DNA of 64,000 nucleotides, taken from Paludibaculum fermentans. Its GTDB lineage: Bacteria; Acidobacteriota; Terriglobia; Bryobacterales; Bryobacteraceae. The notes under the pieces are model-generated. The model did not search any database. It saw only the letters and a program-made list of their open reading frames with translations, and was not told where the DNA came from. Both the position numbers and the translations under genes were made by a program. Position 1 is the first letter of the stretch. Each line of letters begins with the position of its first letter. Shown here one piece after another: positions 10,040-56,292 of the stretch. The DNA lies in assembly GCF_015277775.1 (NCBI RefSeq), contig NZ_CP063849.1:7269501-7333500 (forward strand). Reading direction: 5' to 3'.

Positions 10040-13000
10040 ATGAAGCAGTCGTCGAAAGGGTCATCCAGGGCTGTCTCCCCCGTGCAGGTTCTGGCGCTGC
10101 TCATGACCGGCATCGCCGTGGCGGGATTCTTCTACCTCCTTCATTTGCGCCGCGAGTTTGACTCCGAGGTGCATCTCAGGGTGGACGCCGCGGCCAACAT
10201 GAAGGCAGCCGATGTTGCCGCCTGGCGCGGCGAACGGCTCGCCGACGCGGAAGTGTTGGCCGCCGGCATTAAGCACACGCCCCTGCTGCTGCACATCCTG
10301 CATGGAGAAGCTACTCCGCTGGAGCAGGCGCAGGCGCGCGAGTGGCTTGGGATTCTGCGCACCCAATACCGCTATGCCAGCGTGACCCTCGTCGGCTTGC
10401 GAGGCGAGGTGCTGCTGTCGGTTGGGCAGACCTTCGAGGATGCCCAACAACTGCAGGCATGGATTGCCAGAATGGGGGACACTTCGGGCATCGCCTACAG
10501 CGCTCCTGAGGCCGTCGCTTCCAGGCGCGCTCCCCTGCTCAGCGCCAACATTGTCCTCAGGTCGCTTCAGGGAGAGAAGCTTGGTTATCTTCTGCTCGGC
10601 ATCGAACCGGAGAACTACCTGTTCCCCACGCTCCGCGATTGGGTGGGCGCCGGGCAGACCGGAGAACTGTTGCTCGTCCGGCGTGAGGGCGACAGTGTCC
10701 TCTTCCTGAACAGTACCCGCCTTCGTCCCGGTTCCGCACTGACCGTCCGCCAACCTCTCTCCAAAACAGAGCTGCCCTCCGTTCGGGCCGTACTGGGAGA
10801 ATCCGGATCTATCGACGGGATGGACTACCGTGGGGCGGCCGTTGTGGCCGCTGCCTGCCTGGTCCCCGGCTCGGACTGGTATGTAGTGGCCAAGATGGAC
10901 CGAAGTGAAGCCTTGGCCCCAGAGCTTCGAGCGACCATACAGTTCTCCATTCAACTGGCTGTCCTGATGCTGCTCAGCGGTGCTCTCGTCTGGTTGATCC
11001 TGCGGCGCCAGAGCGGCCGGTTTTACCTTGAGAAGTACCGTTCCGAAATCGAGCGGAACCGGCTGCTTAGCATGTACAACTCCCTCTCACGCCATGCTAA
11101 CGACGCCATCCTGGTCTTTGAGCGCGACGGCCGCATCATCGAAGTCAACGACCGCGCGGTCGAAATGTTCGGCTACTCGCGCGAAGAAATGCTGGCCATG
11201 CGCATTCCGCAGCTGAAGCCCGATCAGCACGCCGACGATTTTGAGCGGGTCATGAAGGTGGTCGAAGAGAGGAAAAGTGTCGTCTTCGAAACAGCCAATC
11301 GCCGCAAGGACGGCCGTTCCTTCCCCACTGAAGTCAGCTCGTCGGAGATTCTCGTCGACGATCACTGCGTCTACCAGAGCATCCTGCGCGACATCTCGGA
11401 ACGCAAACTGGCCGAGCAGCAGATTCAACGTCTCAACCATCTGTACGCTGTCCTCAGCCGCTGCAATGCCGCCATCGCCCGGGCCCGCTCAGAGGACGAA
11501 CTCTTCCACGAAGTTTGCCGCATCGCCGTGGAATCGGGCGGCTTCCACGTCAGTTGGGTCGGGCAGGTGGATCCGGAGACGTCGATGGTGCTGCCTCTCG
11601 CAAAGAACGGGCCGGCAGCGGCTTACCTGGATGAAGTCAGGATTGAGACCGGCAGCGGTCCCCTCAGTTCCGGGCCAACCGGCGCTTGCATCCGGGAAGG
11701 CCGGGCCGTCGCTTCCGCCGATTTCGACACCGACCCCCACATGACGCCCTGGCGCGAAACCGCTGCCCGGTATGGTTTGCGGTCCTCGATCTGCCTGCCT
11801 GTTTCGCGTCGTGGCAGAACGGCCTATGTTCTTGGCCTGTACTCGTCGGAACCCGGTTTTTTCTGTGCGGAGGAGATTGATTTGGCCGAGGAAGTGGGCG
11901 AGAGTCTCTCGCTCGCTTTGGCTCGCATCGACCTGGAGCGCGACCGGGAACGCGCCGAACGCGATCGCCTGCTGGCACAGGAACGGCTCGAATTCGCGCT
12001 GGACGCGGCCAATGAGGGGTACTGGGACTGGGACATCGAGAAGGACCAGCGCTTCTTGAGCCCAAGATTCTGCACCATGCTGGGGTACCAACCGGGCGAA
12101 CTGGCGTCGGACTACGCCACGTGGCGGGAGGTCACGCATCCTGATGACCGGGCCAGGCTGGACAATGAACAGGAATCCCTCAAGTCAGGAAGGATCTCCA
12201 GTACCTCGGTCGAGTTTCGGGCGCGCCACAAAGATGGACATTACGTCTGGATTCTTGGCTCAGCCAAGGTGGTGGGACTTAATGACGCGGGCCGTCCCCG
12301 GCGTATCGTAGGCTCCCGCGTCGACATCACGCAGAGGAAATTTCTCGAACAGCAGGTACTCCAATCCCAGAAACTGGAGTCGGTCGGACGCCTGGCCGGA
12401 AGTGTTGCCCATGACTTCAACAACCACCTGACCGTCATCAACGGCTATTCAGGACTTCTGCAGCAGGAGGCTGCGCCCGGCAGCGTCCTGGCCGAATCGC
12501 TCAATCAGATTCATGAAGCGGGCGAACGCGCCGCGGCGCTCACCCGCCAATTGTTGGCCTTCAGCCGCAAGGAGATCGAGCATTGCGAGGCGCTGAATCC
12601 CAATTCGGTGATTGAAGGTCTCCAGAAGATGCTCAGCCGCCTCATGGGGGAGAACGTGATACTCCATCTGGACCTGGATCCGGAGGCCGGCTTCGTGATG
12701 GTCGATGCGACTCATCTGGAGCAGATCCTCATGAACCTCGCCATCAATGCCCGCGACGCCATTTCGCGTTCCGGTCACGTGCACATCAGGACCGCGAAGG
12801 TGATTCTCGAGGGCAACGAAGCCTGGCCGAACCGCAGCGGCCCTCACCTGGAGCTGACCGTGACCGACGACGGTTCCGGCATGACCCCTGAGGTCCTGCA
12901 GCACATCTTCGAGCCGTTCTTCACCACTAAGGACCGGACCCACGGCACCGGCCTCGGGCTCTCCACCGTCTATGGGATCGTCGAACGCAGCGCCGGCTTC

Positions 13001-29862: not shown

Positions 29863-31360
29863 ATGACATCGTTTCTGCGGCGAAATTCGGTGACTCTGCT
29901 GGCTCTGCTGGCTGCTGCGTACTCAGTCCTGTGGATCTGGGGCGGCAGCCGGGAGGGCTTCACCCATGACGACCTGATGAATCTCAACTGGGCGATCGCC
30001 CAGCCCTGGCGCAAACTGCTGCTCGATTGTGTTCTCATCTGGCAGCCCGCCCAGCCCGTCCGCCCGTTGGGTGAGGCGGCCTACCGGCTACTCTGGGAGC
30101 TGTTTCACTTCGACCCCTTTCCCTTCCGCTGTGTGCCTTGCCCTCATCGCCATCAACACCGCGCTGTGCTTCCTGCTGGCCCGCTTCCTCATTGGGAACA
30201 CCCTGTGGGCCTTGGCTGTGGCTTGGTTTCTGGCCTATCACGGCTCCTTTTGGGGGATGTACTGCAACACGGGCGTCATCTTCGACATCCTGGCGGTGAC
30301 CTGCTACTCTCTCGCCCTGCTGACGGCCTCGTGGAAGCCCCGGACTCTCCCCGCAAACTGCGGCCGTCTGCTGCTGATCCTCCTGCTGGCCGCCGCCGCC
30401 CTCAACTCGAAAGAGATTGCCGTCAGCCTCCCCGCCGCGCTGGGCGTGCTGCTGCTGCTGGAGCACCGGTCAGCCGCGCCGGGCGTCGACCCCGGTTCCC
30501 GTCGCCTGTGGTGGAATCTCGCCAGCCTGTTGCTCGTGGCCGGCGTAACCGCCTTGTTCGTGTTTGGCCGGGTCCTTGCCCAAGGCGGCATTGAAGGCGT
30601 GCCCGGCTACCATCTGGCGCTCAGCGCCACCCAGTTCGGAGCGAATTGGAGCGGGTTCCTCTCCGCACTCTTCTACGACAAGGTGGCCTGGACCCCTCCG
30701 GCCGCGGTCGGAGTGTTCGTGGCCGCCCTCGCCGTGCTCGCCGCTCTGCGCTGGTTCCGCGAACTCCTGTTCCTCCTTCTCTCCGTGGTCAGCTTCCTGC
30801 CCATGGCGTTCATCCTCCCCCGCGGACTGGACGCATCGTTCCTATCCGTCTTCTGGCTGATGGTGGCCATCGGCTGCGCGTTCAACCGGACGCCTCATTC
30901 CCCCTCCTGGCTCAAGCCGCTGCCCTTCGCGCTCATTCTGGCCGTGACCGCCTCGCAGGCGACCCTCGGACGAATCAGCTTCCCGCAGTTCCAGCAAGAG
31001 TCCCGCGCCATTCAGCTTGCCTACAGCGGGATCAGAGCGGCGACGGGAGAAGTGCGCGATCGCAGCGCTCTCGCATTTGTGGAGGATCCCTTTGCGCCCC
31101 GCTTCCCCTGGGCCACCACCTTCATGGTCCTGCTGGCCACCCAGAAAGACGGTCTCAGCATCGTCCGGCCGGAAGACATCGCAGCCCGGCGGTCGGACGT
31201 TCCGCCCGGTCAGGCCTACGACCTCGTCCTGCTGGTGACCAAATCCTACGACGTGCTGCGCTGTACCGGGCTGGAAGGGCGTCCCCTCACCATGGAGGAT
31301 CTTTCCGCGAAGAGCTACGTCTGCCCGGCGGCCGCCCCCTCCTCGAAGCGGGCATTTTAG
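29863..31360 (+). pseudogene. Polytopic membrane protein (glycosyltransferase-like), frameshifted
   Basis: The N-terminal part (MTSFLRRNSVTLLALLAAAY, then GGSREGFTHDDLMNLNWAIA) has the first span and the acidic DD motif expected in the first loop of GT-C type (PMT/ArnT-like) glycosyltransferases. It reads in one frame to about 30130 (WELFHFDPFPFR). The continuation (AVCLALIAINTALCFLLARF onward, about ten spans to 31360) is in another frame. One small indel near 30125-30135 joins them into a protein of about 500 aa. The periplasmic C-terminus (AYDLVLLVTKSYDVLRCTG) is intact. It is either a young pseudogene or a sequence error. Confidence 0.6.
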
Positions 31361-31429
31361 AGTTCGACGGGCAGGGTTCGTTGGCCCAGTCCTGGGGCCG
31401 TCTAGACCCGCCGCTTGCAGCCCCTCCCC

Positions 31430-31573
31430 GCGACTTCTCGCCCATTTTTCCCTCCCCGCCGAAAGCAGTTCCGCCGTTCGAAAAATATCCTTCCTTTCGA
31501 ATCAATCAGTTGCGGAAAAAGGCCCCAAAATCTTTGGGACTGTCTTGTATAACCTTGCCCCAGGAGAACAAGT
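31430..31573 (+). promoter_or_regulatory. Conserved leader of the split-terminase cassette (copy 1)
   Basis: This non-coding stretch aligns along its length with 54540-54687. Shared blocks are CGACTTCTC, CCCATTT, AGCAGTTC, the palindrome arms TTCGAAA (31477-31483) and TTTCGAA (31495-31501) with an 11-base spacer in both copies, CGAATCAATC, TGTATAAC (probable -10 box) and a GGAGAACAA ribosome site directly before ATG. Spacer bases differ while arms and spacing are kept, the pattern expected of a selected protein-binding operator or hairpin. A second small hairpin (CCCAAA, TTTGGG) lies before the -10 box in this copy only. Confidence 0.7.
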
Positions 31574-32041
31574 ATGCAGATTTTCAGTCAGACTACGGAA
31601 GACTTTGTACCGTCGCGCCGCTTGGCGAAGACGGCCGGCGCCGGCCCTCTCGCGGGCGACGCCTCGGACAACCTCATCACGTGCATCGAGGATCCGTCGC
31701 TCTATTCCTCACTGCGCGACGACGTCCACCAGCACTTCAACCCGACAACCCGCTTTGAGCAGCATTTGGCCGACGCCATCGCCGAGGAGCTCTGGCGCAA
31801 AGCCCGCTATTCCCTCGTCGAAACCACCGCTCTCACCGTGGCCATCGAGCGCGATTGGGAGACCGTCCAACAGTCCTGCCCCGACGCCGACCCCTCTTAC
31901 CGCACCTACGTCGCCTTCCGGAACCTGGACGCCCGCGACACCGCCTGTGTCCGCGCCAGCCAGGACTCCGAGACCCGCGCCTGGCGCCGCAGCCGTGCCG
32001 ATGTTGCCACCCTCCAGGCCCTCAGGAGCAAACCCCGCTGA
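31574..32041 (+). CDS. Small cassette protein A (155 aa), unknown function
   Basis: Its first 60 residues align with the 84-aa protein at 54688: MQ-x-F start, a D-x-V/M-x-S-R patch, then LITCI and LRDDVHQ. The rest (about 62-145) is helical and charged (FEQHLADAIAEELWRKARYS, LVETTALTVAIERDWETVQQ). It resembles the C-terminal helices of the small STGPRT-x-x-GK proteins common in Acidobacteria and Planctomycetes, but has no STGPRT box. The stop region and the CACCGGGAACC linker to the next gene are also conserved with the second cassette. Function is unknown. Confidence 0.65.
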   Translation: MQIFSQTTEDFVPSRRLAKTAGAGPLAGDASDNLITCIEDPSLYSSLRDDVHQHFNPTTRFEQHLADAIAEELWRKARYSLVETTALTVAIERDWETVQQSCPDADPSYRTYVAFRNLDARDTACVRASQDSETRAWRRSRADVATLQALRSKPR

Positions 32042-32151
32042 CCCCAGCCACCGGGAACCACCGCCATGACTAGACCCCCATGCCCCGCGCTCCGCCGCTG
32101 CCCGAGCCCCGCGGCCACCCCGCAAACCCTCCAGGCCAATGGAGTACTCCC

Positions 32152-33045
32152 ATGGCGCTCATGAGATGGAATGACAAAACCGCCCGGCTGTTTCGCCTCT
32201 TGCCGCTCGGCAGCCAGGCCCCCGCCCCGTCCCGGGCGGCCGCGCCCCCTCTGCCCTCGCAATGGGTCCGCGACACCTTTCACTTCACGCCGGACCCCGC
32301 CCAAACCGCGGTCCTCGATACCCCCGCCCGCCGCGTCCTCCTCTGCTGCACGCGCCAGTGGGGCAAATCCACCGTCACGGTCCTCATGGCCCTCTATCAC
32401 GCCTTCAACGCGCCGGAATCCCTCACGCTCTGCGTGAGCCCGGCTCTCCGCCAAAGCCGGATCTTCCTCCAGAAGGCCGCCCGCTTCCTTCGCCGCGCCG
32501 GTGTCCCTTACACCCGCGACCCTCGCGATCCGCTCTCGCTCCTCCTCCCCAACGGCTCCGCCCTCATCGGCCTTCCGGCCCGCGAAGGCAACATCCGCGG
32601 CTTCGACAACGTCTCGTTCCTCATCCTCGACGAGGCGGCCAAAATCCCGGACGAGGTCTATACCGCCGTCCGCCCCACGCGCGCCGTCTCCGACGGCCGC
32701 CTCTGGCTCCTCTCCACGCCCGCTGGCCAGTCCGGCTTCTTCTTCCGCGAATGGCACGACCCCGCCGCCGGCTGGGCCCGCTTCACCGTCAAGGCCACCG
32801 CCTGCCCGCGCATCCATCCGGACTTCCTCGCCGCCGAACGCCGCGCCCTCGGCGAACACGACTTCGCCCAGGAGTACCTCTGCGAATTCCGACCCTCCCA
32901 GCATCAGCTCATCCCGCGCGACCTCATCGATCACGCCGTCGTCCCGGGCGAGACCTGCTTCGACGAACACGACGGAGCCCTGCTGTCCGGCCCGGACCCC
33001 GATGCCGGTTCGGCCGCCTCGGAATGGGAGGAGCCCGCCGCCTGA
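32152..33045 (+). CDS. Terminase large-subunit ATPase domain (stand-alone)
   Basis: The product (297 aa from ATG 32152) is the N-terminal motor half of a phage large terminase. It has an adenine-side segment (FHFTPDPAQTAVLDTPARRV), a Walker A variant CTRQWGKST (Lys about 72), Walker B FLILDEAAKI (Asp160-Glu161) and a coupling motif LWLLSTP, then FFFREWHDP and FAQEYLCEF. In phages this engine packs DNA into capsids. Here the nuclease half is a separate downstream gene (35-base gap) and no portal, capsid or small-terminase gene is present. It is probably a domesticated DNA translocase; its role is unknown. Confidence 0.85.
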   Translation: MALMRWNDKTARLFRLLPLGSQAPAPSRAAAPPLPSQWVRDTFHFTPDPAQTAVLDTPARRVLLCCTRQWGKSTVTVLMALYHAFNAPESLTLCVSPALRQSRIFLQKAARFLRRAGVPYTRDPRDPLSLLLPNGSALIGLPAREGNIRGFDNVSFLILDEAAKIPDEVYTAVRPTRAVSDGRLWLLSTPAGQSGFFFREWHDPAAGWARFTVKATACPRIHPDFLAAERRALGEHDFAQEYLCEFRPSQHQLIPRDLIDHAVVPGETCFDEHDGALLSGPDPDAGSAASEWEEPAA

Positions 33046-33079
33046 AGCCCTCCCTTCAGGCACTCACCAGGGAATCCCT

Positions 33080-33742
33080 ATGCGCAAACCAATCCCCCAC
33101 TCCACCTATCATCTCGGGCTCGACCTCGGCTTCAGCCGCAACCCCTCCGCCCTGGCCTGTCTGGAAGACCTCACCCGGCCCACGGGCGAGTTCGATCACA
33201 TCTACCGCGTGCAGAAGACGGAGACGGTGCTGGTCCTCCGCGCCATCTTCCGGCTGCCGCTGCGCACGCCCTATGCGGACATCCCGGCCTTCCTTGCGAA
33301 CTACCTGGAGCGCCTGGACGCCCGCACGCCTCACTACCGGCCCGTGAAACATCTGGCCGTCGACGCCACGGGCGTGGGCATGCCCGTGGTGGAGCACCTC
33401 CAGCGCGCCGGCCTCCCCGTCCGCCTGGAGCCCATCGTGATCACCAGTGGCGAATCCGTGGGCCAACTCGCGCATGCGGTCTCGGTGCCCCGCAGCGCGC
33501 TGCTCCACAACCTGCGAGTCCAGTTGGAAACGCAGGCCCTGCGCATCCCGGCCGGCCTCCCCAACCTCCCGGACCTCTACACCGAACTGGGCGGCCTGGG
33601 CGATCCCAAAGCCGCAACCCCGGACGACATGGCCTTCGCCCTGGCCTTAGCCGCCTGGAGCGCCCGGCCACACCCCTACGTCGGAGAGAGGGACCACGCC
33701 CTGCCTGTCCACCTGGGAGGCCCCAAACCGAGGCTCTTTTGA
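33080..33742 (+). CDS. Terminase-type RNase H-fold nuclease (stand-alone)
   Basis: The 220-aa protein has the three acidic positions of the terminase C-terminal nuclease: Asp15 (YHLGLDLGFSRNPSALACLE), Asp95 (HLAVDATGVGMPVVEHL) and Asp182/183 (TPDDMAFALALA). The strand order fits the RNase H/RuvC-like fold of Terminase_6C. It would complete the ATPase encoded just upstream, so a normally single large terminase is split in two genes. ATG 33080 is the only reasonable start. Longer frames in this register from 32501 run through the ATPase gene and are ignored. Confidence 0.75.
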   Translation: MRKPIPHSTYHLGLDLGFSRNPSALACLEDLTRPTGEFDHIYRVQKTETVLVLRAIFRLPLRTPYADIPAFLANYLERLDARTPHYRPVKHLAVDATGVGMPVVEHLQRAGLPVRLEPIVITSGESVGQLAHAVSVPRSALLHNLRVQLETQALRIPAGLPNLPDLYTELGGLGDPKAATPDDMAFALALAAWSARPHPYVGERDHALPVHLGGPKPRLF

Positions 33743-33826
33743 AAAAGCCGCAGTACCCAAACTGCACGGGTGGATGGGGCCGGCTCCATCCGCATGTGGG
33801 GTGGGCTTCAGCCTTCAGCCCATTCC

Positions 33827-34657
33827 TTACTGCCCCTGCCCGGCAGCCGGGTAAGGCACGATCTCATCTTTCGCTTCTGGAGGGTCAAAGATGCGCTGAT
33901 CCCGCACCACCACACTGGTCCGAAAGACCAGCGCTTTGCCCCCGGTCGCGCGGCTCCGGGCCGGGTCGAGGGTTTTGTAGAACCGCGCCCACGGGAAGCC
34001 CGAATTCACACTGTCATATCGGGTATCGACCCGGACCATGAGCCGCAGCGCCGGGCCGCTGAGGTCATAGACCCACAGGCTGCCCTCCGAAACCGCATTC
34101 GCGCCACCGGAGGCATCCACCAGCAACTCCGGTTGCCCATCGCCGGTGACGTCGACAAAGGTGCCCCGGTCGATCGTCAGGTTGGAGCCTTCCAGGTAAG
34201 CCACCGCCGCCTTCCATTGCCCGCGCTCCTGGGTCAACAGGGCGACTTTCCCCATGAATCCGCATTGATTGCAGTGGTCGATATCCGGAAAGGTATAGGT
34301 CAAAAGCAGGACGTATTGGGGACCGCCCGCCGGCCGGGCCCGCGTCACGGTTTCCACTTGCACGAACCGCCGGGAGCCGGGCGGTCCCTCGTCCAGCACC
34401 GAGGTGGCCACCGTCAACTCCTCGGCGACTGGCGGCGCGATGACCTGAAAACACGGCAGCAGCGGCCGGCTGGCACCGCCGCGGCTCGCTTCCACCGGCC
34501 GCGGTTCGCAGCGGCTCTCGGGCATGCTCCGGACACTCGCCCTGGGAAAACTCGCCTGGACCAGTTCCTCCAGCAGGTTGGGATTTAACTCATCCCCCGC
34601 CATCGCCGGCATCGCTAGAATTGCCGCGAGCCCGGCCGTCACCCATTTCAGTCGCAT
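33827..34657 (-). CDS. Secreted protein with FG-GAP/VCBS-like segment
   Basis: I start at ATG 34657, giving a clean signal peptide (MRLKWVTAGLAAILAMPAMA); ATG 34672 is an alternative. The mature part contains TFVDVTGDGQPELLVDASGG, the D-x-D-G-x-x-D/E-L pattern of calcium-binding FG-GAP/VCBS strands, and a HCNQCGF cysteine pair. It is probably periplasmic. The function is unknown, and it converges with the terminase cassette, so it is not part of that operon. Confidence 0.65.
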   Translation of the reverse strand: MRLKWVTAGLAAILAMPAMAGDELNPNLLEELVQASFPRASVRSMPESRCEPRPVEASRGGASRPLLPCFQVIAPPVAEELTVATSVLDEGPPGSRRFVQVETVTRARPAGGPQYVLLLTYTFPDIDHCNQCGFMGKVALLTQERGQWKAAVAYLEGSNLTIDRGTFVDVTGDGQPELLVDASGGANAVSEGSLWVYDLSGPALRLMVRVDTRYDSVNSGFPWARFYKTLDPARSRATGGKALVFRTSVVVRDQRIFDPPEAKDEIVPYPAAGQGQ

Positions 34658-35569: not shown

Positions 35570-36177
35570 CCGGGCACTCTCGCCGAAAACCCCACTGCGC
35601 CCATGCGCGGAGCAATTCCAGGGCAGTCCGCAAGGGAATCCCCATGCCCCCAAGGCCCGCCAAACCGGAGGAAGCCGCAAATTGAGCCGCGAATGTAAAT
35701 GAGCGGATAGCCACCGAAAGGCTCCACTCAGGCAGTCTCGCGACCCTTTGCCAGCGTGTCTTCAAGGGAGTCCCCATGGCCCTGCGGGCCGCCAAAGCGG
35801 AGGAAGCCGCCCCCACATCCCCAGTCCCAGAGCGAAGCGACGGGCTACGCGGGCGTCCTCAGCGGAGGGGTGTGCCAACGGCCAGCCCGTATCCGGCCAA
35901 GATTCTACTGTCCCGGTCGGAACGCCGCGGTTTGGCGCAATGGGCCAGGCTTGCGGGAAATGGGACCGATGGGGAGCGACCCCAGCCCTGCAAGGCCGGT
36001 CAGCTTGCCCTGTCAGGAACGCAAAAGGGGATTGCCCGTTCGAAAAGGGTTTTTTACTGCGAGCGTTTCAATTCTTGCGCGTGACGGTCATTTTCAGTTA
36101 CGGCCATCCTGAGGGGCCCCGCAATTCAGCTAGAATCGTCATTTGTTCATCTGATTCAACCGCGAACGGAGGTGGAT
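35570..36177. repeat. Repeat-rich intergenic region
   Basis: No gene is supported. Two related blocks, CAAGGGAATCCCCATG at about 35630 and CAAGGGAGTCCCCATG at about 35761, each continue with GCCGCCAAA/CCGCCAAAC and CGGAGGAAGCCGC, giving a direct repeat of about 130 bases. The dispersed GAGCCGCGAATGTAAATGAG element with GCGGATAGCCACC lies at 35684-35715 and matches 22174-22205. The right end carries the GGAGG ribosome site for the ankyrin gene. Confidence 0.55.
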
Positions 36178-43136: not shown

Positions 43137-43832
43137 TCAGCCGGCAGCCAAGGTCAACTCCTCCCCTGGATGGTCGCTGGCCACCGCGCCTGTCATCGGT
43201 TTGCGAGCCTGCTGCTGAAAGCGAATGCTCTCCAGAAATGACTCATCCCCAAGAGCTTGCCCGGCGTGTGTCGATTTTCGAAGGAGGCGATAGTCAGCTT
43301 CGGGCACCGGCATCCCGAGCAGTTGAAGCCAATTCTCGACTCCCCGTGACTGTCGGAAGAACTCCATATCGAGGAGCCGGCGACGGTCGTGGCCGCTGAG
43401 GTGCGCCTCCGCACTCGACCACTCGTAGTCCACTGGTTGTTCCGCCAGGCCTGCCCGCATGGGATTTGATTCGACATAACGGATTGCAGTCCAAAGATGC
43501 GCGGGCCGCATGGGACAGGAGTAGAAACGGTTCTGCCAGAGATGCCCGCAACGCGAGCGCCGGGCAGTGAAATACTGCGCGAACCGGCCATGGACACGCC
43601 GGAAGAGGACGGCCAGGGAGTCCTCTTCCGGAGGGACCGCAATCAGGTGTATATGGTTGGGCATTCAACAGTAAGCGAGAACCGAGACGGACGCAAAGCC
43701 CGCCTGCTCACGCAGGAGATCCAGACAAACCAGACGATCGGCTCGAGTAAGAAAAACGAGTTGGCGCGCGGTTCCGCGCTGGGTGATGTGGTGGACCGCG
43801 CCGGGCGCAACGCATCGGGCAATCCGGGGCAT
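43137..43832 (-). pseudogene. REP-associated tyrosine transposase (Y1/TnpA-REP), in-frame TGA
   Basis: Starting at ATG 43832 (MPRIARCVAPGAVHHITQRG), the frame runs to TGA at 43665-43667, then continues in the same register as MPNHIHLIAVPPEEDSL to 43137. The stop replaces the residue before the HUH motif (YC-x-MPNHIHLI), normally Leu or Trp. The HUH pair (HIH), the tail RFAQYFTARRSRCGHLWQNR and AIRYVESNPMRAGL are intact. One base change therefore disrupts an otherwise complete RAYT gene. No REP palindrome cluster was found beside it. Confidence 0.75.
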
Positions 43833-43987: not shown

Positions 43988-45058
43988 ATGAATAGCTTGT
44001 ACTATCTCGGCCTCGATGTGCACAAGAAGACCATCAGCTACTGCCTCAAACTTGTCGACGGCTCCATCGTCGCCGAGGGCACGGTGAGCACACAACGGAA
44101 ATCCCTGGAGGCTTGGCTGCGCCAACTCCCCAAACCTTGGTGTGGGGCGATGGAGGCAACCTTGTTTACGGGCTGGATCTACGACTTCCTGCTGCCTCAT
44201 GCCAAGTCGCTTCAGGTCGCGCACCCGGCCATGCTGAAGGCGATTTCTGCTTCCAAGAAGAAGAACGACAAAGTCGATGCCCGCATGCTGGCGGACCTGC
44301 TGCGATGCAACCTCCTGCCGGTATGCTACATGGCGCCACCGGAGTTGCGGGAACTGCGCCGTCTGCTCCGCTACCGGAGTTTGATGGTGCGCCAGGCGGT
44401 CCGCATGAAGAACAAGACGGCGGGCCTGCTGATGGAAGTGGGGGCCGAGTACAACAAAGAAAAGCTCCATCAAGCCGGCTATTTCCGAGACTTGCTGGAG
44501 ACTGTCGAAGAAGTGCCCGATTCCGTGAAAGATCTGCTGAAGATCAGTCGCGGGGCTGCCGAGCTATTCGATGAGGCGCAACGGCGGCTGGTGCTGGGCC
44601 TTTTGCGCAATCCGCTTCTCAAGCAACGAGTCGAGCGGCTGAGGAGCATCCGCGGCGTCGGAGAGATTCTGGCATTGACCTGGGCGGTGGAGGTAGGGGA
44701 ACCGAGCCGGTTCCCGACGGTGGGGCATGCTCTCAGTTACTGCGGGCTGACGAGCGCACAGATCAGCTCGGCCGGCAAAGAGCAGCGGGCTCCGATTTCG
44801 AAACAGCGCAACAAACATTTACAGACGATTTTGATTGAAGCCGCCAAGGTGGCCCCGCTGTGGAACCCGCAGCTCAAACTGGTGCACGAACGGGAAAAGA
44901 ACCGGGGCAATCCCAACCGAGCCACGTTGGCCGTGGCTCGGAAGCTGGTGGCCTACCTGTTGGCGGTGGATCGCAGCGGCCAGCAATTCCAGCCGCGCGC
45001 GATCGCGGAGAAAGAAAGCAGATGCCTGGAGGAGCAGGTTGCAATGCCAGCGCAATAA
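43988..45058 (+). CDS. IS110-family DEDD transposase
   Basis: The 356-aa protein has the RuvC-like N-terminal DEDD site (Asp10 in YLGLDVHKK, Glu56 in GAMEAT, Asp94 and Asp97 in KKKNDKVDARML). It also has the C-terminal Transposase_20 domain with IRGVGEILALTWAVEVGEPS, the HALSYCGLTSAQISSAGKEQ stretch and its catalytic-type Ser, and NKHLQTILIEAAKVA. Length and order are complete. IS110 enzymes work as RNA-guided recombinases using a bridge RNA from their non-coding end. Ribosome site CGAGGAG precedes ATG. Confidence 0.93.
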   Translation: MNSLYYLGLDVHKKTISYCLKLVDGSIVAEGTVSTQRKSLEAWLRQLPKPWCGAMEATLFTGWIYDFLLPHAKSLQVAHPAMLKAISASKKKNDKVDARMLADLLRCNLLPVCYMAPPELRELRRLLRYRSLMVRQAVRMKNKTAGLLMEVGAEYNKEKLHQAGYFRDLLETVEEVPDSVKDLLKISRGAAELFDEAQRRLVLGLLRNPLLKQRVERLRSIRGVGEILALTWAVEVGEPSRFPTVGHALSYCGLTSAQISSAGKEQRAPISKQRNKHLQTILIEAAKVAPLWNPQLKLVHEREKNRGNPNRATLAVARKLVAYLLAVDRSGQQFQPRAIAEKESRCLEEQVAMPAQ

Positions 45059-48744: not shown

Positions 48745-48912
48745 ATGCTGCAGAATTGGGCAAGCCGCCAACGCCAACTCTTCGAAGAACAGCCGCCAGC
48801 TTTGGGCGTTCGCCTTCCGCCGGAAGTGCAGGAACAACTACGCCAAGCTGTGGTGCACTGGCTACGGGCGCTGGCCAAGGCGCTCCGCGAGGAGGAAAAA
48901 GGCGATGAGTAA
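48745..48912 (+). CDS. Small helical protein preceding serine recombinase
   Basis: The 55-aa product (MLQNWASRQRQLFEEQPPAL, then LPPEVQEQLRQAVVHWLRAL) is a charged helical protein typically found between a DUF5372 gene and a large recombinase in such elements. AGGAGGATCACG before ATG 48745 is a good ribosome site. Its stop overlaps the recombinase start by 8 bases, so the two are coupled. Function is unknown, perhaps an accessory or control factor. Confidence 0.6.
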   Translation: MLQNWASRQRQLFEEQPPALGVRLPPEVQEQLRQAVVHWLRALAKALREEEKGDE

Positions 48913-50959
48913 AATCACCGCCGATCACCTGGCCCGGCGAGCCTGCATATACATTCGCCAGTCCACACCCGACCAGGTGCGGCACAACCTCGAGAGCCAG
49001 CGCCTGCAGTATTCTCTCGCCGACCGCGCGCGCGGCTTGGGCTGGCAGGACGTCGACGTTATCGACGAAGATCTCGGCATCTCAGGGGCGGGCACACGCC
49101 GTCCTGGATTTGAGCGCCTGCTTCGTGCTCTCTGCAATGGGCAAGTGGGCGCGGTGTTCAGCGTTGAGGCGTCGCGACTCGCGCGTAACGGCCGGGACTG
49201 GCACACCTTGCTCGAATTCTGCAGCATCGTCGGAGCGCTGTTGATCGATGCTGATACCACATACGACCCCAGGCTTACCAACGATCGATTGTTGTTGGGG
49301 ATGAAGGGCACGATCAGCGAAATGGAAATCGCGACGTTTCGGGAGCGCGCGCAATCAGCCTTGCGGCAGAAGGCCGAGCGTGGCGCTTTGGTACGGCGCG
49401 TCCCAATTGGGTATGTCAAAGGCACCGACGATCAGATCGAGAAAGATCCCGACGTCAGGATCGCCTCCACGGTGGAATTGATCTTCCGCAAGTTCACCGA
49501 GTTGGGCAGTGCGAGGCAGGTCTTCTTCTGGTTGGACCGAAACCAGATTCAGATGCCCGTTGCTCGCGGGCCGGAGACTTCGCGAGAAGTAGTCTGGCAG
49601 CCGGCTCGATACCACGCGGTGCACAGCATACTGAAGAACCCTGTCTACGCCGGAGCGTACACCTATGGGCAAAGCAAAACGACAGTACGGTTGGAGGACG
49701 GCCAGAAGCGGGTCTGCCGGAGCAAACAACCCCGGCAAGAAGACTGGGCTGTATTGATCACGGAGCATCACGAGGGTTACATTGACTGGGATGCCTATCG
49801 GAGCAATCAGGCGGTGATTGCCGACAACGAAAATGCGAAAAGCGCGTCGGTGCGAGGATCAGTACGGCAAGGTGGAGCGATTCTTGCGGGACTGCTGCGT
49901 TGCGGCCATTGCGGCGCCAAGCTGCTCGCACAGTCTCCGCGGCCTGGCGTGATTCGCTACCAATGTTCGGGGTATGTTCTCAATCGCGATCATCCCTGTT
50001 GTGTCATGTTCGGCGGTCTGCGCGCCGACCGTCTGGTGTCGGAGCAACTGCTAGGATGCCTTGCGCCGCTCGGCACCGAAGCGGCCATAGAGGCAATGGA
50101 GTCGCTACAGGGAGGAAGCGACGAGCGGGTCAGGCAGAAAGCCCTGGCATTGGAGCAGGCACGCTACGATGTGACGCGTGCCCGGCGCCAATACGATGCG
50201 GTTGATCCGGCGAACCGCCTTGTGGCGGCGGAACTCGAACGGCGTTGGAATCTGGCGTTGGCTGAGGAAGCGCGGGTGGAGGCAGAACTTGCGGCCCTAC
50301 AGCAACGCCGAGAGAGCCCCCTCACCGACGAGCAGAAACGAAAACTGCTGGACTTTGCACGAGATCTCCCCTCGCTGTGGGACGATGCGCTCACTTCGCC
50401 GGAGCATAAGAAGCGGCTCCTTCGAATTGCGCTAAAGGAGATCGTCGTTACCAGCGAGGGAGAGACGATTCGCTTTGTCCTGCATTGGCAAGGCGGCGAT
50501 CATACGCAGACGGAGTTCTCCAAGATTCGCGCCGGTCGGCACAGGTATGTGACCGACGACGAGGTAGTGGAAACGGTCCGCGCATTGGCAAGGATCGAAC
50601 CGGACGCCCGGATCGCGGCGCTACTCAACCGCAACCGAAAGCCGACGGCGCACGGTAAGACCTGGACGGCACGACATGTCTGCTCGTTGCGCTGCAATCA
50701 CAAAATTGAGGTCTACCGCGAGGGAGAGCGGCAGAGCCGCGGCGAAGTATCGGTCAGCGAAACGGCAGACATTCTCGGCGTCACACAAACCACTGTCCTA
50801 CGGCTGATCCGGCTGAAACGGCTGAAGGCCACGCAGATCTGTCCAAATGCCCCGTGGATTCTACGGCGGGTAGACGTGGAGCAATGGGTGGCTGATCGAA
50901 ACGAGCCGACAACCCCACCAACGGAAACTTCAGGGCAGATGAGCCTTGAAATTCCTTAA
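48905..50959 (+). CDS. Large serine recombinase
   Basis: The 684-aa protein starts with the resolvase catalytic domain (Ser20 in CIYIRQSTPDQVRHNLESQ, then EDLGISGAG, FSVEASRLARNGRDW and GTISEMEIATFRER). A recombinase domain follows (RRVPIGYV, ILKNPVYAGAYTYGQSKTTV), then a zinc ribbon (LLRCGHCGAKLL with the later HPCC), a long coiled coil (LALEQARYDVTRARRQYDAV) and a C-terminal helix-turn-helix (SVSETADILGVTQTTVLRLI). It is the engine of the element that split the IS4 transposase gene. Attachment sites should lie at about 48483 and 50975. Confidence 0.95.
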   Translation: MSKITADHLARRACIYIRQSTPDQVRHNLESQRLQYSLADRARGLGWQDVDVIDEDLGISGAGTRRPGFERLLRALCNGQVGAVFSVEASRLARNGRDWHTLLEFCSIVGALLIDADTTYDPRLTNDRLLLGMKGTISEMEIATFRERAQSALRQKAERGALVRRVPIGYVKGTDDQIEKDPDVRIASTVELIFRKFTELGSARQVFFWLDRNQIQMPVARGPETSREVVWQPARYHAVHSILKNPVYAGAYTYGQSKTTVRLEDGQKRVCRSKQPRQEDWAVLITEHHEGYIDWDAYRSNQAVIADNENAKSASVRGSVRQGGAILAGLLRCGHCGAKLLAQSPRPGVIRYQCSGYVLNRDHPCCVMFGGLRADRLVSEQLLGCLAPLGTEAAIEAMESLQGGSDERVRQKALALEQARYDVTRARRQYDAVDPANRLVAAELERRWNLALAEEARVEAELAALQQRRESPLTDEQKRKLLDFARDLPSLWDDALTSPEHKKRLLRIALKEIVVTSEGETIRFVLHWQGGDHTQTEFSKIRAGRHRYVTDDEVVETVRALARIEPDARIAALLNRNRKPTAHGKTWTARHVCSLRCNHKIEVYREGERQSRGEVSVSETADILGVTQTTVLRLIRLKRLKATQICPNAPWILRRVDVEQWVADRNEPTTPPTETSGQMSLEIP

Positions 50960-53363: not shown

Positions 53364-54461
53364 GTGACGAAACCACCGGGAGTCGCGAAGACCGGCGCAT
53401 ACCAGCCCCTGTTCGATGGCATTGTCGCGTTGCTCGAAGAGTCCCGGCGCGCGGCAGGGCGAGCCGTCAACTCCATCATCACCTCGGCCTACTGGGAGAT
53501 CGGTCGACGCATCGTCGAGGAAGAACAATCCGGGCAACGCAAGGCGAACTACGGCGATCAACTGGTCGAGCAGTTGGCCATGGACCTCACGGCCCGATTC
53601 GGAAAGGGTTTTTCGAGAACCAACGTATTTCAGATGCGTCAGTTCTACCTCTCCTTCCAGGAGATTGTCCAGACACCGTCTGAACAATCTTCGGCGCTCA
53701 CAACCGTCCAGACAGCGTCTGGACAATTGCCGCCGTTTCCGCTCTCCTGGTCCCACTATGTCCGGTTGCTCTCCGTCCAGGATCTATCGGCCAGGCGTTT
53801 CTACGAGAAGCAGGCTTTGAGCTCCGGATGGTCCGTTCGCCAGTTGGACCGCCAGATCGCTTCTCAATTCTACGAGCGTTCCAAAGCCGCGCGGCGGAAT
53901 CTCGTAGCACGAAGGCAGCCGGGCGATGACCTCACACCCGACGAGCAAATCCGGGACCCTTTCGTACTCGAGTTTCTCGGCCTGAAAGACGAATACTCCG
54001 AACACGAACTCGAGGAGGCGTTGATCCAGCACCTGGAGCACTTTCTGTTGGAACTCGGAGACGACTTCGCCTTCATGGCCCGTCAGAAGCGTCTGCGGGT
54101 GGGCGATGAATGGTACCGGGTGGACTTGCTCTTCTTCCATCGCCGGCTGCGCAGCCTGATCCTCATCGATCTGAAACTCGGCCGCTTCTCCCACGCGGAC
54201 GCCGGCCAGATGAATCTCTATCTGAACTATGCCCGCGAACACTGGATCCTGCCCGGCGAGAACCCGCCCGTTGGCTTGGTGCTCTGTTCGGAACGGAACG
54301 ACGCGGTGGCGCACTACGCACTCGGAAACCTGAACAACCAAGTCTTAGCCCGGGAGTATAAGTTGAGCCTGCCAGAGGAGGGAGTCCTGGTGAGAGAAAT
54401 CTCGGACACCCGCCGTGCCCTGCAGCTTCGAGCCCAATTCAAGCCAACCGTCGACCCATAA
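53364..54461 (+). CDS. DUF1016 / YhcG-type PD-(D/E)XK nuclease
   Basis: The N-terminal DUF1016 helical domain (LLEESRRAAGRAVNSIITSA, YWEIGRRIVEEEQSG, LTARFGKGFSRTNVFQMRQF) is followed by LSWSHYVRLLSV and, from about residue 210, a PD-(D/E)XK nuclease core (LFFHRRLRSLILIDLKLGRF, Asp and the D-L-K pair, then AGQMNLYLNY). The length (365 aa) is typical. YhcG proteins travel with mobile DNA and are often near restriction or defence genes. Start GTG/ATG at 53364 follows 70 bases after the IS110 remnant. Confidence 0.9.
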   Translation: MTKPPGVAKTGAYQPLFDGIVALLEESRRAAGRAVNSIITSAYWEIGRRIVEEEQSGQRKANYGDQLVEQLAMDLTARFGKGFSRTNVFQMRQFYLSFQEIVQTPSEQSSALTTVQTASGQLPPFPLSWSHYVRLLSVQDLSARRFYEKQALSSGWSVRQLDRQIASQFYERSKAARRNLVARRQPGDDLTPDEQIRDPFVLEFLGLKDEYSEHELEEALIQHLEHFLLELGDDFAFMARQKRLRVGDEWYRVDLLFFHRRLRSLILIDLKLGRFSHADAGQMNLYLNYAREHWILPGENPPVGLVLCSERNDAVAHYALGNLNNQVLAREYKLSLPEEGVLVREISDTRRALQLRAQFKPTVDP

Positions 54462-54539: not shown

Positions 54540-54687
54540 CCGCTCGACTTCTCCCCCATTTCCGCCCCGCCGCCAACAGCAGTTCACGAGTTCGAAATTT
54601 ATCGTCGCTTTCGAATCAATCGGTTACGCCGAAAAGCCCTCCAATTCATAGGATCGGCGTGTATAACGTTGCCCAAGGAGAACAACG
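54540..54687 (+). promoter_or_regulatory. Conserved leader of the cassette (copy 2)
   Basis: Aligns with 31430-31573. The arms TTCGAAA (54591-54597) and TTTCGAA (54609-54615) again enclose 11 bases of different sequence. CGAATCAATC, TGTATAAC and AAGGAGAACAA before ATG 54688 are shared. The conserved spacing and arms argue for a selected operator or hairpin common to both cassettes. Confidence 0.7.
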
Positions 54688-54942
54688 ATGCAGACTTTCA
54701 ATACGAATACGGACGACATGGTACGCTCGAGCCGTTTCCTGGTAACCACCCACGACCGTGCGAACGCGCCTGTGCATCTGCGGCCACAGGCTGCTGGCCT
54801 CATCACCTGCATCGCGGACCAAGCCCTCCTGGCAGCGCTCCGCGACGACGTCCACCAGCAGATCGGCCCCGCTCCGCGTCTCAAGCCGCGCAGGACCGTT
54901 CCCAGGGCCGCCCTCCCGGCCTCGAGGAGCAACGCCCGCTGA
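54688..54942 (+). CDS. Small cassette protein A' (84 aa), shortened relative of the 31574 gene
   Basis: Residues 1-60 match the protein at 31574 (MQTFNTNTDDMVRSSRFLV; LITCIADQALLAALRDDVHQ). The next 70 residues of that protein are absent, and the final ALPASRSNAR corresponds at DNA level to the other's last codons (GAGGAGCAA then CCCGCTGA). So it is an internally deleted version that has kept the leader, N-terminus and end. Function is unknown. Confidence 0.55.
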   Translation: MQTFNTNTDDMVRSSRFLVTTHDRANAPVHLRPQAAGLITCIADQALLAALRDDVHQQIGPAPRLKPRRTVPRAALPASRSNAR

Positions 54943-54963
54943 CCCCCAGCGCCGGGAACCGCC

Positions 54964-56292
54964 ATGGCCAACCAACCCATCTCCGAGCGCCGCCTCGCCG
55001 CCAACCGCGCCAACGCCCAGAAATCGACCGGGCCCCGCACCGCCGAAGGCAAGCTCCGGGTCTCACAGAACGCCACCCGCCACAACCTCTACTCCGGCCC
55101 GCACCACCTGCCGGAAGACATCGAAGCGCGTCTCTACCATCAGGCGCTGCAGCAGACCGCGGACATCGCCAACCCAAAGTTCCGCTCGCTCTCAGTACAC
55201 CGCCTGATCCTCCGGGGCCACGAGCGCCGCCTCTTCCAACTCGAAGGCAAGCTCTGGGCCGAAGCCCTCCGGGCCAACAACGAAGCCATCCCCCAAGCCG
55301 CGCTCTGGATCCGCGAGAACCAGGGCGAAGTCGTCCAGGCCCTGGGCCGCTATCACGCCTGGATCTGTGTGCGGATCCGGGCGATCCAGAAGTCCGCCTT
55401 CCCTTATCTGACGGGAGACGTGGCTCATCAGCAATCCATCCCCGCCCGAGTCCAGGCCCTCTTCGCCGCGGCCGCCGGTTCCACCCGGCCCATAGCGTTA
55501 ACCGCGCAAGCCAGTGCAACCCCCACGAACTCAGTGACTGCGGAAGACCAGGCGCCTGCGTCAGGCAACAGCAATCTCGTTCCGCCGCCCCTCGGCCTCC
55601 AACTTCTAGCAAAGGTGCAAGGCGCCTGCCGCCCGGTCCGCCCGGTCCCAGCCCCGCAACCAGTGAAGGCCATCCGCCCACCCACGGCCCCCGGCCTAAG
55701 CCTCCGTTTTCTCAAGCACGCCCGCAAACCCGCCCCGTCAAACGAAGCCAACCAGGCCCGCGAAGCAAACAGAGCCGCCGCAAACGGAGCCGCTGCAAAC
55801 GGAGCCGCGAGTGTCAACGAGCGGATAACCACCCAAAACTCCCCAACCAGCCACCCACCCGTGCCGCCCGTACCCACCGAGCCCCGCAACCCCGAACACC
55901 CCGACACCACGGCCGCCCCAGCGCCCACACCCGCGAACCGAGCCGCGAGTGTCAACGAGCGGGCAGCCACACGAAGCCCCCAACCATCTCTCCATCAAGG
56001 CCTCACGCCCAACCTCATCTCCTCCCCGGCCAGCACGGCCTCCACCCCGGAATCCACTCTCCCCGAGGCATCAAACCCAACCCCGAACCCCTCGCCGGTC
56101 CCAACCGCAGCCGCCACCCAGCCAATCCACCACCACATCCAATCGCGCGGCCCCCGTCCGGCCCCGCAATCCCGTCCGCCTGAGCGATCAAAGCCACCGC
56201 AACCCACTCAACCCCTCAACGCGGACCCATCATCAGGGGAAACGAAGCCACGATTGAGGCCCTCACCAGCCCTGCCACTGCCCGATTCCTAA
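54964..56292 (+). CDS. STGPRT-box protein with low-complexity tail
   Basis: The N-terminus has the box typical of a large uncharacterised bacterial family (RRLAANRANAQKSTGPRTAE, then GK and QNATRHNLYSG). It is followed by a helical domain to about residue 160 (LILRGHERRLFQLEGKLWAE, IWIRENQGEVVQALGRYHAW-like). From about 180 the protein becomes an Ala/Pro/Asn-rich tail that includes three tandem 15-base repeats (55771-55812) and two 23-base dispersed repeats. It sits 21 bases after A' with the same CCGGGAACC linker as in the first cassette. Function is unknown. Confidence 0.6.
   Translation: MANQPISERRLAANRANAQKSTGPRTAEGKLRVSQNATRHNLYSGPHHLPEDIEARLYHQALQQTADIANPKFRSLSVHRLILRGHERRLFQLEGKLWAEALRANNEAIPQAALWIRENQGEVVQALGRYHAWICVRIRAIQKSAFPYLTGDVAHQQSIPARVQALFAAAAGSTRPIALTAQASATPTNSVTAEDQAPASGNSNLVPPPLGLQLLAKVQGACRPVRPVPAPQPVKAIRPPTAPGLSLRFLKHARKPAPSNEANQAREANRAAANGAAANGAASVNERITTQNSPTSHPPVPPVPTEPRNPEHPDTTAAPAPTPANRAASVNERAATRSPQPSLHQGLTPNLISSPASTASTPESTLPEASNPTPNPSPVPTAAATQPIHHHIQSRGPRPAPQSRPPERSKPPQPTQPLNADPSSGETKPRLRPSPALPLPDS
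55802..55824 (+). repeat. 23-bp repeat GAGCCGCGAGTGTCAACGAG+CGG (copy 1)
   Basis: Identical to 55940-55962 and related to the intergenic elements at 22174 and 35684. Here it lies in frame inside the tail of the STGPRT-box gene, so the dispersed repeat has been taken into coding sequence. Confidence 0.7.
55940..55962 (+). repeat. 23-bp repeat (copy 2)
   Basis: Exact match to 55802-55824, 138 bases apart and in the same reading frame, so the encoded peptide (AASVNER) also repeats. Confidence 0.7.

Follow-up and report, generated by a model that had tools for sequence, protein, structure and literature searches.

A split phage-type terminase in a phage-free, multicopy cassette of Bryobacteraceae that may behave as a small mobile element

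A cassette at positions 31432–33742 of the window, the whole 64,000-nucleotide stretch of Paludibaculum fermentans DNA analysed here, joins a leader and the genes for a small protein, for the ATPase of a terminase and, separately, for its RNase H-fold nuclease; no virion gene was recognised in the vicinity (Table 1). Our preferred reading, held tentatively and with somewhat less than even confidence, is that this is an intact copy of a phage-derived, phage-free cassette that behaves as a small mobile element in Bryobacteraceae and their kin. The pattern of copies, flanks, conserved residues and low dN/dS (ω) fits a phage-derived unit moving whole and not a decaying prophage.

Table 1 Features of the cassette and of the second leader copy in the window
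Feature	Position	Strand	Description and basis
Leader	31432–31573	+	Conserved, ~142 bp 5' of the small ORF; Shine–Dalgarno AGGAG; sharp upstream limit
Small ORF, 155 aa	31574–32041	+	Divergent KHG-family member (KHG HMM), lacking the basic N-terminal motif
Terminase large-subunit ATPase, 297 aa	32152–33045	+	Pfam, PHROG, predicted fold
RNase H-fold terminase nuclease, 220 aa, own gene	33080–33742	+	phrog_27743, predicted fold, D15/D95/D182–D183
REP-like hairpin past nuclease stop	33796–33822	+	Putative member of the unit
Leader, second copy	54545–54687	+	74% identity over 54545–54737
Small ORF, second copy, shortened	54688–54942	+	
Full KHG-family protein, 442 aa	54964–56292	+	Behind the second leader and small ORF

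The first-pass annotation had described motor and nuclease as separate adjacent genes with apparently intact active sites, and both reading frames are confirmed, 34 bp apart. A frameshift or assembly error was considered as the origin of the split and rejected, the gene break being retained in genome G002 and in the pair of loci L039/L077. The ATPase, for which a further in-frame ATG lies upstream at 32080, contains CTRQWGKST (Walker A) and FLILDEAA (Walker B) and matches Terminase_6N in Pfam (E = 1e-6; 29 bits, cut-off 22) and phrog_7579 in PHROG (E = 7e-47). The nuclease matches phrog_27743 (E = 7e-19) and has no Pfam match up to an E of 1; tblastn of the window nuclease against phage records gave no match, though the PHROG profile and viral contigs show relatives. 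Structure prediction, which had been suggested for the pair, gave models that are both nearest to terminase folds. That of the ATPase (pLDDT 84) is closest to the P74-26 terminase ATPase 7ks4 (TM 0.64), and that of the nuclease (pLDDT 85) to 3n4q, 5m1q and 4iox, all nucleases of terminases, at a moderate TM of 0.46–0.57. The pair thus has the parts of a terminase large subunit, a Walker A/B ATPase with a predicted terminase fold and an RNase H-fold nuclease with an acidic triad. The catalytic residues are conserved among homologues: among the rows aligned at each position, K72 and E161 of the ATPase are found in 56 of 57 and 64 of 64, and D15 and D95 of the nuclease in 75 of 75 and 80 of 80. 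Asp15 and Asp95 of the triad originally proposed are therefore borne out, while the third acidic position, given as Asp182, is an Asp182–Asp183 pair; this pair belonged to the pattern used to scan for loci, and part of its conservation there follows from that choice. A C-terminal YDxVLxxHCRL tail was spotted by eye before counting.

Measured dN/dS points to purifying selection on both genes: nuclease comparisons give ω at or below 0.27 in 16 of 18 cases, and those of the ATPase in 12 of 13. The values for nuclease and ATPase, respectively, are 0.10 and 0.26 against the G006 copy, 0.075 and 0.26 against that of G002, and 0.08 and 0.10 between L039 and L077, where four flanking genes have ω of 0.07–0.09. 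Constraint is weaker between L141 and L150 (nuclease 0.75, ATPase 0.32) and between L079 and L083 (nuclease 0.49). With residues kept and ω low, the earlier argument against decay stands.

It also stands, as far as the searches reach, that the cassette is not a prophage, the relatives examined lying outside recognisable prophages with no structural phage gene recognised. No head, portal or tail family was among the 25 of 94 families listed for 117 neighbour genes of 17 loci, no portal gene was recognised near the cassettes, and neither these families nor the protein comparison that follows revealed a capsid and tail cluster of the gene transfer agent kind beside the terminase. A phmmer comparison of 915 genes in 84 loci (called with a codon-usage script; the gene lists are approximate) with the proteins of 80 viral contigs gave seven matches outside the cassettes, none recognised as structural; as a positive control, portal- and head-like genes were recognised beside the viral split terminases. 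The gene at 10382–10954 of L079, 9.4 kb from the cassette, is weakly similar (E = 4e-6) to a gene of viral contig L171 that has no assigned function and lies 0.7 kb behind the viral terminase. Ordinary prophage remnants, each decaying separately, could account for this similarity, for the terminase nature of the proteins and for the fragments in G006. We consider them very improbable, since one locus after another has just these two or three genes by themselves, with residues intact and ω low, and so few of the neighbours resemble viral proteins. The statement that no integrase is present holds for the cassette and fails for the window, which carries a large serine recombinase (48905–50959), an IS110 transposase (43988–45058) and a Y1-type (RAYT-like) transposase (43137–43664; score just below the Pfam cut-off), all 9–15 kb from the cassette and with no visible link to it.

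The split pair had been read as perhaps a domesticated nuclease of a new kind. Adjacent ATPase and nuclease genes are also found on Salinibacter plasmids and in viral contigs, where portal and head genes lie next to them, so the split itself is neither new nor a sign of domestication. The tailed-phage versions (phrog_7579 with phrog_27743; L158, L159, L166, L172 and L180) share adjacency, fold and active sites with the cassette but, unlike it, lie between a small upstream gene and, for example in L158 and L166, portal- or head-like genes. Plasmids pSR11, pSR14 and pSR31 of Salinibacter ruber resemble the cassette in carrying the pair outside a recognised prophage, and the pSR11 ATPase is 40% identical to that of the window. 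They are, however, replicons of 11–32 kb with ParA and not chromosomal multicopy cassettes; pSR11 and pSR14 have an annotated primase and a gene weakly like tape-measure proteins. Terminase genes on small Salinibacter plasmids are also noted in PMC6060240. In the ATPase tree, with one odd row left out, 60 chromosomal rows lie on one side and 37 viral and plasmid rows on the other, the chromosomal relatives being nearly all labelled Acidobacteriota. A single chromosomal lineage has a support of 92 in a tree where the long row L105 falls outside it (built without viral ATPases scoring below 120 bits and without ATPases shorter than 600 bp) and of 56 when L105 is omitted, together with L168 and four viral fused rows. 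Judged from these alignments, it is likely, if weakly supported, that the chromosomal copies are one lineage apart from their viral kin.

The reported recurrence of leader and small ORF was confirmed, for the leader with the beginning of the ORF, at the second window copy (E = 2e-27; Table 1) and at further genomic sites; at the second copy the 442-aa KHG protein occupies the place held by the terminase pair at the first. In ten copies compared, the sequence 5' of the leader is common to L043 and L044, and likewise to L047 and L048; these two groups, the two window copies, L042, L045 and L046 all differ from one another there. Structured RNA was rejected as an explanation of the leader, 11 aligned leaders (one from G006) having no conserved predicted pairs; Rfam gave no match in the window at gathering scores, and a sigma-70 promoter scan of 31300–34000 found nothing. 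Upstream of split ATPases a box, [C/G][A/G]GTCAC with A/T, was spotted by eye before counting, and GTCAC is present in 27 of 44 such stretches against 9.6 expected.

The small ORF scores 52 bits (E = 4.6e-15 among 1000 sequences) with a KHG HMM built without it, the best of 999 shuffles reaching 10 bits, and by this profile evidence it is a divergent member of the multicopy KHG protein family. It has 21 matches within its own genome, where a single KHG query has 30. Pfam gave nothing above cut-off for the small ORF or for four KHG proteins, the small ORF has no match in NCBIfam, the four KHG proteins find nothing better than 0.02 in PHROG, and one KHG protein has no match in phage records. As judged from their distances, KHG co-diverges with the ATPase (r = 0.78 over 27 loci, eight with divergently oriented KHG, matches of 60 bits or less being dropped; r = 0.57 over 20 loci after thinning). 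Among loci with room, 8 of 39 split and 10 of 12 fused ones have KHG upstream, on the same strand and no more than 1.5 kb away; none of 60 viral loci with room does. No relationship of KHG to TerS was found: hhalign gave a probability of 0.1 against 11 genes that immediately precede viral split terminases and were assigned as TerS from this placement.

This upstream position is like that of a TerS gene, and the enzymes are packaging enzymes; the cassette might accordingly be a satellite-like thief that loads nearby DNA into phage heads, with KHG standing in for TerS, and spreads by transduction. The Salinibacter plasmids, with split terminase, primase and ParA, would suit such a life. We judge it unlikely, as KHG has no profile similarity to the 11 viral upstream genes and homologous recombination after transduction would not spread copies to unrelated sites. 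Phage-inducible chromosomal islands, non-phage units that use packaging genes, are similar to the cassette in this use outside a phage but have integrase, replication and regulation genes; no such genes of satellites (PICI, P4-like) were seen in the gene lists for three of the genome's own loci, the window and 20 others.

There are four ATPase copies in the P. fermentans genome, and 12 chosen genomes have 4, 2, 5, 4, 12, 5, 8, 11, 10, 19, 1 and 4 ATPase matches, fragments included, with an internal stop in 4 of 85. Most loci are on MAG contigs, where repeats can cause mis-joins. Presence is patchy: 15 of 61 relatives have the cassette, with P. fermentans itself counted in, and so do 6 of 297 genomes sampled phylum-wide. 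Some copies lack KHG, that of L041 lacks the nuclease, and G006 holds cassette fragments and a copy of the window cassette interrupted by a transposase gene. A host-domesticated function, such as defence against phages with related split terminases, would agree with purifying selection near the level of flanking genes and with the retention of one locus between genera; it sits badly with the patchiness, with up to 19 copies per genome and with the fragments, and we hold it to be quite improbable. Neither the cassette proteins nor two KHG proteins matched a PADLOC model. In the same loci, 117 near genes yielded 53 defence-like families and 103 far genes yielded 35 (families counted, not genes), and a defence neighbourhood was rejected: among the families listed, 25 per set, there are somewhat more near but no clear difference. 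The role in defence, DNA uptake or gene transfer first proposed is therefore not borne out; a mobile cassette agrees better with the number of copies, the fragments and the unrelated flanks.

The flanks bear on movement. Among 22 related nuclease pairs (at least 78% DNA identity; alignments of 350 bp or less, or below 78%, dropped), which are not independent as some loci recur, the right flanks are unrelated or shared for less than 100 bp in 14, related in six and untestable in two. Closely similar copies at unrelated sites, as expected of an insertion sequence or transposon, include L128/L129 at 99.6% and, inside a single MAG, L106/L119 at 96%. The MAGs that hold L128 and L129 are different and share flanks of 86% to 99.7% identity, which may reflect recent contact or mis-binning. 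The right flank of L128 is found at 86% in G061, preceded there by 5 kb without the cassette. Between the window cassette and the G006 copy, dS is 0.39 for the nuclease and 0.33 for the ATPase, compared with 1.14–1.15 for two genes of another locus. In G002 the cassette is at an unrelated site and the window's right-hand genes are on another contig; there the nuclease dS (0.63) is near the background of 0.65–0.84 and only that of the ATPase (0.32) is lower. Vertical inheritance accounts for some older copies: six pairs remain at one site, and L041 has a flank at an exopolysaccharide locus in common with G006 and further neighbour genes in common with L079, L080 and L083. In three cassettes a repeat search detected no inverted repeats at the outer ends, and aligned ends viewed by eye showed no terminal inverted repeats or target duplication. 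Evidence for empty sites is one-sided, with no clean two-sided one in the genus genomes G001–G008 and G061–G066.

One arm of the hairpin past the nuclease is an imperfect inverted repeat of 33042–33061, between ATPase and nuclease, and such inverted arms bracket the nuclease in the window as they do in L076. By eye, a similar stretch was seen 3' of the nuclease in L076 and L236. REP-like hairpins lie within 250 bp past the nuclease in 10 of 76 loci compared with 14 of 568 other genes (Fisher p = 1.5e-4), nine of the ten in one orientation, by a definition made after some of these loci had been viewed and with two of the ten (L098, L099) being one locus in two MAGs; L128 has REP-like copies between ATPase and nuclease. 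REP/RAYT and IS elements are common in these genomes, and the RAYT-like and IS110 genes of the window are 9–10 kb away. The cassette could, then, be a passenger, kept for another function (host or selfish) and moved by such elements, which we think rather unlikely: 66 of the 76 loci have no hairpin, the definition was post hoc, one locus is counted twice, the hairpin may be a terminator, and no flanking IS pair was noticed in the loci viewed. RAYT–REP systems (REPtrons) also set an enzyme unit beside palindromic repeats, as in some cassette loci, but the cassette's enzyme is a terminase, present several times in a genome. Transposases of the IS110 type (DEDD; COG3547) have a RuvC-like RNase H nuclease like that of the cassette but differ from it in that the cassette has a separate ATPase gene and a leader without conserved predicted RNA structure. 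COG3547 transposases, RuvC and terminases are put in one clade in PMC3985635.

Returning to the mobile cassette, the terminase itself may drive its movement. KHG protein would bind DNA beside the cassette, the ATPase would assemble on it and move DNA, and the nuclease would make double-strand cuts, repair then placing a copy elsewhere; the leader could be both promoter and left end, and the cassette would end on the right at the stop codon of the nuclease or a little beyond it. The usual partner of a terminase motor is a portal, and we know of no terminase that transposes DNA. That the cassette represents a new class of mobile element, a captured terminase guided by KHG that would cut its own short cassette and move it through bacterial chromosomes without integrase, transposase or virion, is a doubtful proposition.

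We found no paper on split, orphan or domesticated terminases in a search of titles and abstract beginnings, subscription journals being largely outside it. What is new here is the chromosomal cassette group, phage-free, conserved and multicopy; the split is already present in phages and plasmids. Terminase genes serve as prophage markers. PMC5900883 gives two terminase genes for Candidatus Solibacter usitatus and one for Bryobacter aggregatus, with no capsid or portal detected, and counts one active prophage in each of the two genomes. Cassettes like that of the window could explain such counts. Through the terminase cassette, the KHG family gains its first partner. If the terminase is the mobility enzyme, this would be a new way of moving DNA; if it is not, a role must still be sought for a set of packaging enzymes that are conserved and come with no virion.

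The three genes of the cassette follow one another on the forward strand of the window, in a genome (G000) of 9.5 Mb and two contigs. Profile searches assign the ATPase to Terminase_6N and phrog_7579. For the nuclease they give phrog_27743, a family to which no function is assigned, and no match in Pfam or NCBIfam. AlphaFold2 models of both enzymes, built on alignments of 18 and 20 relatives, have pLDDT values of 84 and 85. In Foldseek, the closest structures to the nuclease model are the nuclease domains of the cytomegalovirus, G20c and herpes simplex terminases (E = 3e-6 to 5e-5, TM-scores 0.46–0.57), with RuvC ranking after them, and the closest to the ATPase model is from phage P74-26 (E = 2e-17). 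The first-pass annotation, which had read a split terminase behind a recurring leader, was correct as to the cassette, and its leader does recur, with a second copy at 54545.

Features of the window and of the loci compared
Sequence	Position	Strand	Feature
Window	31574-33742	+	Three successive ORFs: 155-aa protein, 297-aa terminase ATPase, 220-aa nuclease
Window	54545-56292		Leader, small ORF and longer KHG protein
Window	33042-33061, 33792-33811		Arms of imperfect inverted pair
L076	9960-9974, 10760-10774		Arms of imperfect inverted pair
Window	35751-35871		Dispersed repeat, about 110 bp
L271	6980-7362		Tandem copies of the ~110-bp repeat, after nuclease fragment
Window	43137-43664		Y1-type transposase, just under cut-off
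Window	43988-45058		IS110 transposase
Window	48905-50959		Large serine recombinase
Window	53364-54461		YhcG nuclease
L045	7083-9886		Site of 2.3-kb KHG unit
L079	10382-10954		Gene resembling a gene of L171
L085; L118	6770-6802; 10730-10762		YDxVLxxHCRL tail
L098; L099	10014-15129; 1-5115		Stretch common to two MAGs
L236	13875-15581		DDE transposase gene between ATPase and nuclease of G006 copy

The nuclease is present in 15 of 61 genomes, its own included (genus 7/9, other family members 7/28, order 1/20, weakly, and class 0/4), and in 6 of 297 drawn evenly across the phylum, again including its own. Scanning named genomes yielded 138 relatives, and the comparison was limited to the 80 best loci, of which 78 bear Acidobacteriota group labels, one Nevskia and one Rhodospirillales. 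ATPase and nuclease are separate genes in 51 of the 80 and one frame in 17; only the nuclease is seen in 12, 10 of which lie at a contig edge without room for an ATPase. Among the rows aligned at each position, the nuclease keeps D15 in 75/75, D95 in 80/80 and both D182 and D183, a pair that is part of the scan's pattern, in 79/79, and the ATPase keeps Walker-A K72 in 56/57 and E161 in 64/64. Two or more nuclease matches are adjacent in L160, L177 and L143 and in genomes G242, G121 and G303, some behind one ATPase. One subgroup, including L085 and L118, carries a YDxVLxxHCRL tail at the nuclease C-terminus or in an adjoining small ORF. Upstream of the ATPase, L085, L087, L128 and other split loci share a conserved [C/G][A/G]GTCAC with an A/T-rich stretch after it (GTCAC in 27 of 44 upstream regions of split loci against 9.6 expected).

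For the window copy, omega against the genus members G006 and G002 is 0.10 and 0.075 in the nuclease and 0.26 and 0.26 in the ATPase. The small ORF gives 0.56. The pair L039/L077 gives 0.08 for the nuclease and 0.10 for the ATPase, with 0.07–0.09 in flanking genes (n = 4). Over all comparisons, 16 of 18 for the nuclease and 12 of 13 for the ATPase give an omega of at most 0.27; higher values come from L141/L150 (0.75 for the nuclease, 0.32 for the ATPase) and from L079/L083 (0.49 for the nuclease). Both enzymes are, on the whole, maintained. We rank last the reading of the cassette as a remnant.

The genes surrounding the four loci of the own genome read as ordinary chromosomal ones. When the called genes of 84 loci were clustered, the KHG family was the single recurrent neighbour linked to the cassette (32 loci); the next families, in at most 14 loci each, read as common host genes. 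A PHROGs search with 117 neighbour genes of 17 loci showed no head, portal or tail family in the best 25 of 94, and portal, major head, head-tail adaptor and tail families topped the list for the positive control, 61 genes of nine viral split-terminase contigs. When 915 called genes were run with phmmer against every protein called on 80 viral contigs, seven genes outside the cassettes proved similar to one of these, none recognised as structural. One of the seven, in L079 and 9.4 kb from the cassette, resembles (E = 4e-6) a gene of unknown function that starts no closer than 0.7 kb past the L171 terminase. A host function for the cassette ranks ahead of the remnant.

The split itself comes from phages. 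In viral contigs such as L158, L159, L166 and L172 the ATPase adjoins the nuclease, with a small gene ahead of both; contigs such as L158 and L166 have portal- and head-like genes downstream. A tree of 99 ATPases unites all but one of the 61 chromosomal rows in a single group of 60 (SH-aLRT 92); the long row L105 and the viral split rows branch outside it. A second tree, without L105 and five other rows and with plasmid rows added, places all 60 chromosomal rows on one side against 37 others (support only 56). The simplest reading is one capture from split-terminase phages, in which case fused chromosomal forms would be secondary. Salinibacter plasmids pSR11, pSR14 and pSR31 also carry an ATPase and nuclease pair; the small pSR11 and pSR14 also encode a primase, ParA and a weakly tape-measure-like gene, and are possibly phage satellites or phage-plasmids. 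For the cassette, the satellite reading ranks ahead of host function.

The leader, ~142 bp directly ahead of the small ORF, falls into seven kinds by upstream sequence in 10 copies compared: one common to L043/L044, one to L047 (twice) and L048, and five others all different. Leader and small ORF also precede a longer protein, here named KHG, whose basic motif has the consensus RxNGAKSxGPxTxxGKAxSSxNAxRHG, in 2.3-kb units at four places (L045, L046, L047 and L048), 88–95% identical, with one doubled, and once more in the window at 54545-56292; about 3.8 kb of L047 is duplicated in tandem, and ~147-bp tandem repeats adjoin some copies. The small ORF itself belongs to the KHG family but lacks the basic motif, because an HMM of 26 KHG proteins built without it still finds it, at 52 bits against 10 for the highest-scoring of 999 shuffles. 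A search of G000 with one KHG protein gives 30 matches. A KHG gene lies upstream of the ATPase, on the same strand and within 1.5 kb, in 8/39 split and 10/12 fused chromosomal loci with room and in 0/60 viral loci; at some other chromosomal loci it is divergent. KHG and ATPase distances correlate with r = 0.78 (27 loci), or 0.57 (20 loci) after thinning (p = 1e-4), values to which host relatedness can contribute, and ATPase and nuclease distances with 0.85. KHG proteins have no detectable likeness to genes in the TerS position of viral split terminases.

Twelve chosen genomes contain 1 to 19 ATPase matches each (85 in total, fragments included), and four of the matches have an internal stop. 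In 18 of 80 loci no more than 700 bp separate the nuclease from the beginning of the locus, which is what assemblies broken at near-identical copies should show. The right flanks of 22 nuclease pairs of at least 78% DNA identity, in which loci recur so that pairs are not independent, are unrelated or common over less than 100 bp in 14, related in 6 and not testable in 2, of which one, L039/L077, has a common left flank. Two MAGs supply L128 and L129, whose sequences agree at 98.4% over 1061 bp and part at the nuclease stop, and G061 has the right flank of L128 with no cassette there. Flanks common to these MAGs (L128 right flank, L085/L090, L098/L099) range from 86% to 99.7% identity, and therefore the identity of L128 and L129 alone does not date the move. 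MAGs Umea1_bin-2613 and YR_bin-1866 share 5.1 kb at 99.7% (L098/L099), their other common flanks being 86–90% identical.

G002 carries the window cassette at an unrelated site and has its copies of the window's right-hand genes on another contig. The G006 copy has the YCII-domain gene on its right in common with the window and nothing on its left, and a DDE transposase gene splits it between ATPase and nuclease; G006 holds additional cassette fragments. The ~110-bp dispersed repeat of the window has dozens of matches in G006 and others. The dS of the cassette to G006 is 0.33–0.39, against 1.14–1.15 for two genes from another place. In the comparison with G002 the nuclease has a dS of 0.63 and the ATPase one of 0.32, against 0.65–0.84 for four genes, so that there the ATPase alone stands out. 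The exopolysaccharide-locus cassette (L041) keeps its place between genera, which counts against movement. A search of three cassettes for inverted repeats at their outer ends found none. An imperfect inverted pair brackets the nuclease gene at two different sites (window, 20 nt, 80%; L076, 15 nt, 87%), one arm falling in a REP-like hairpin behind the nuclease. That the cassette moves itself by terminase action is a step beyond saying that it moves, and one that we infer; its being a passenger ranks second among the readings.

Ranked first is a phage-derived cassette that would move as a unit and keep both of its enzymes active, a reading that anatomy and distribution fit.
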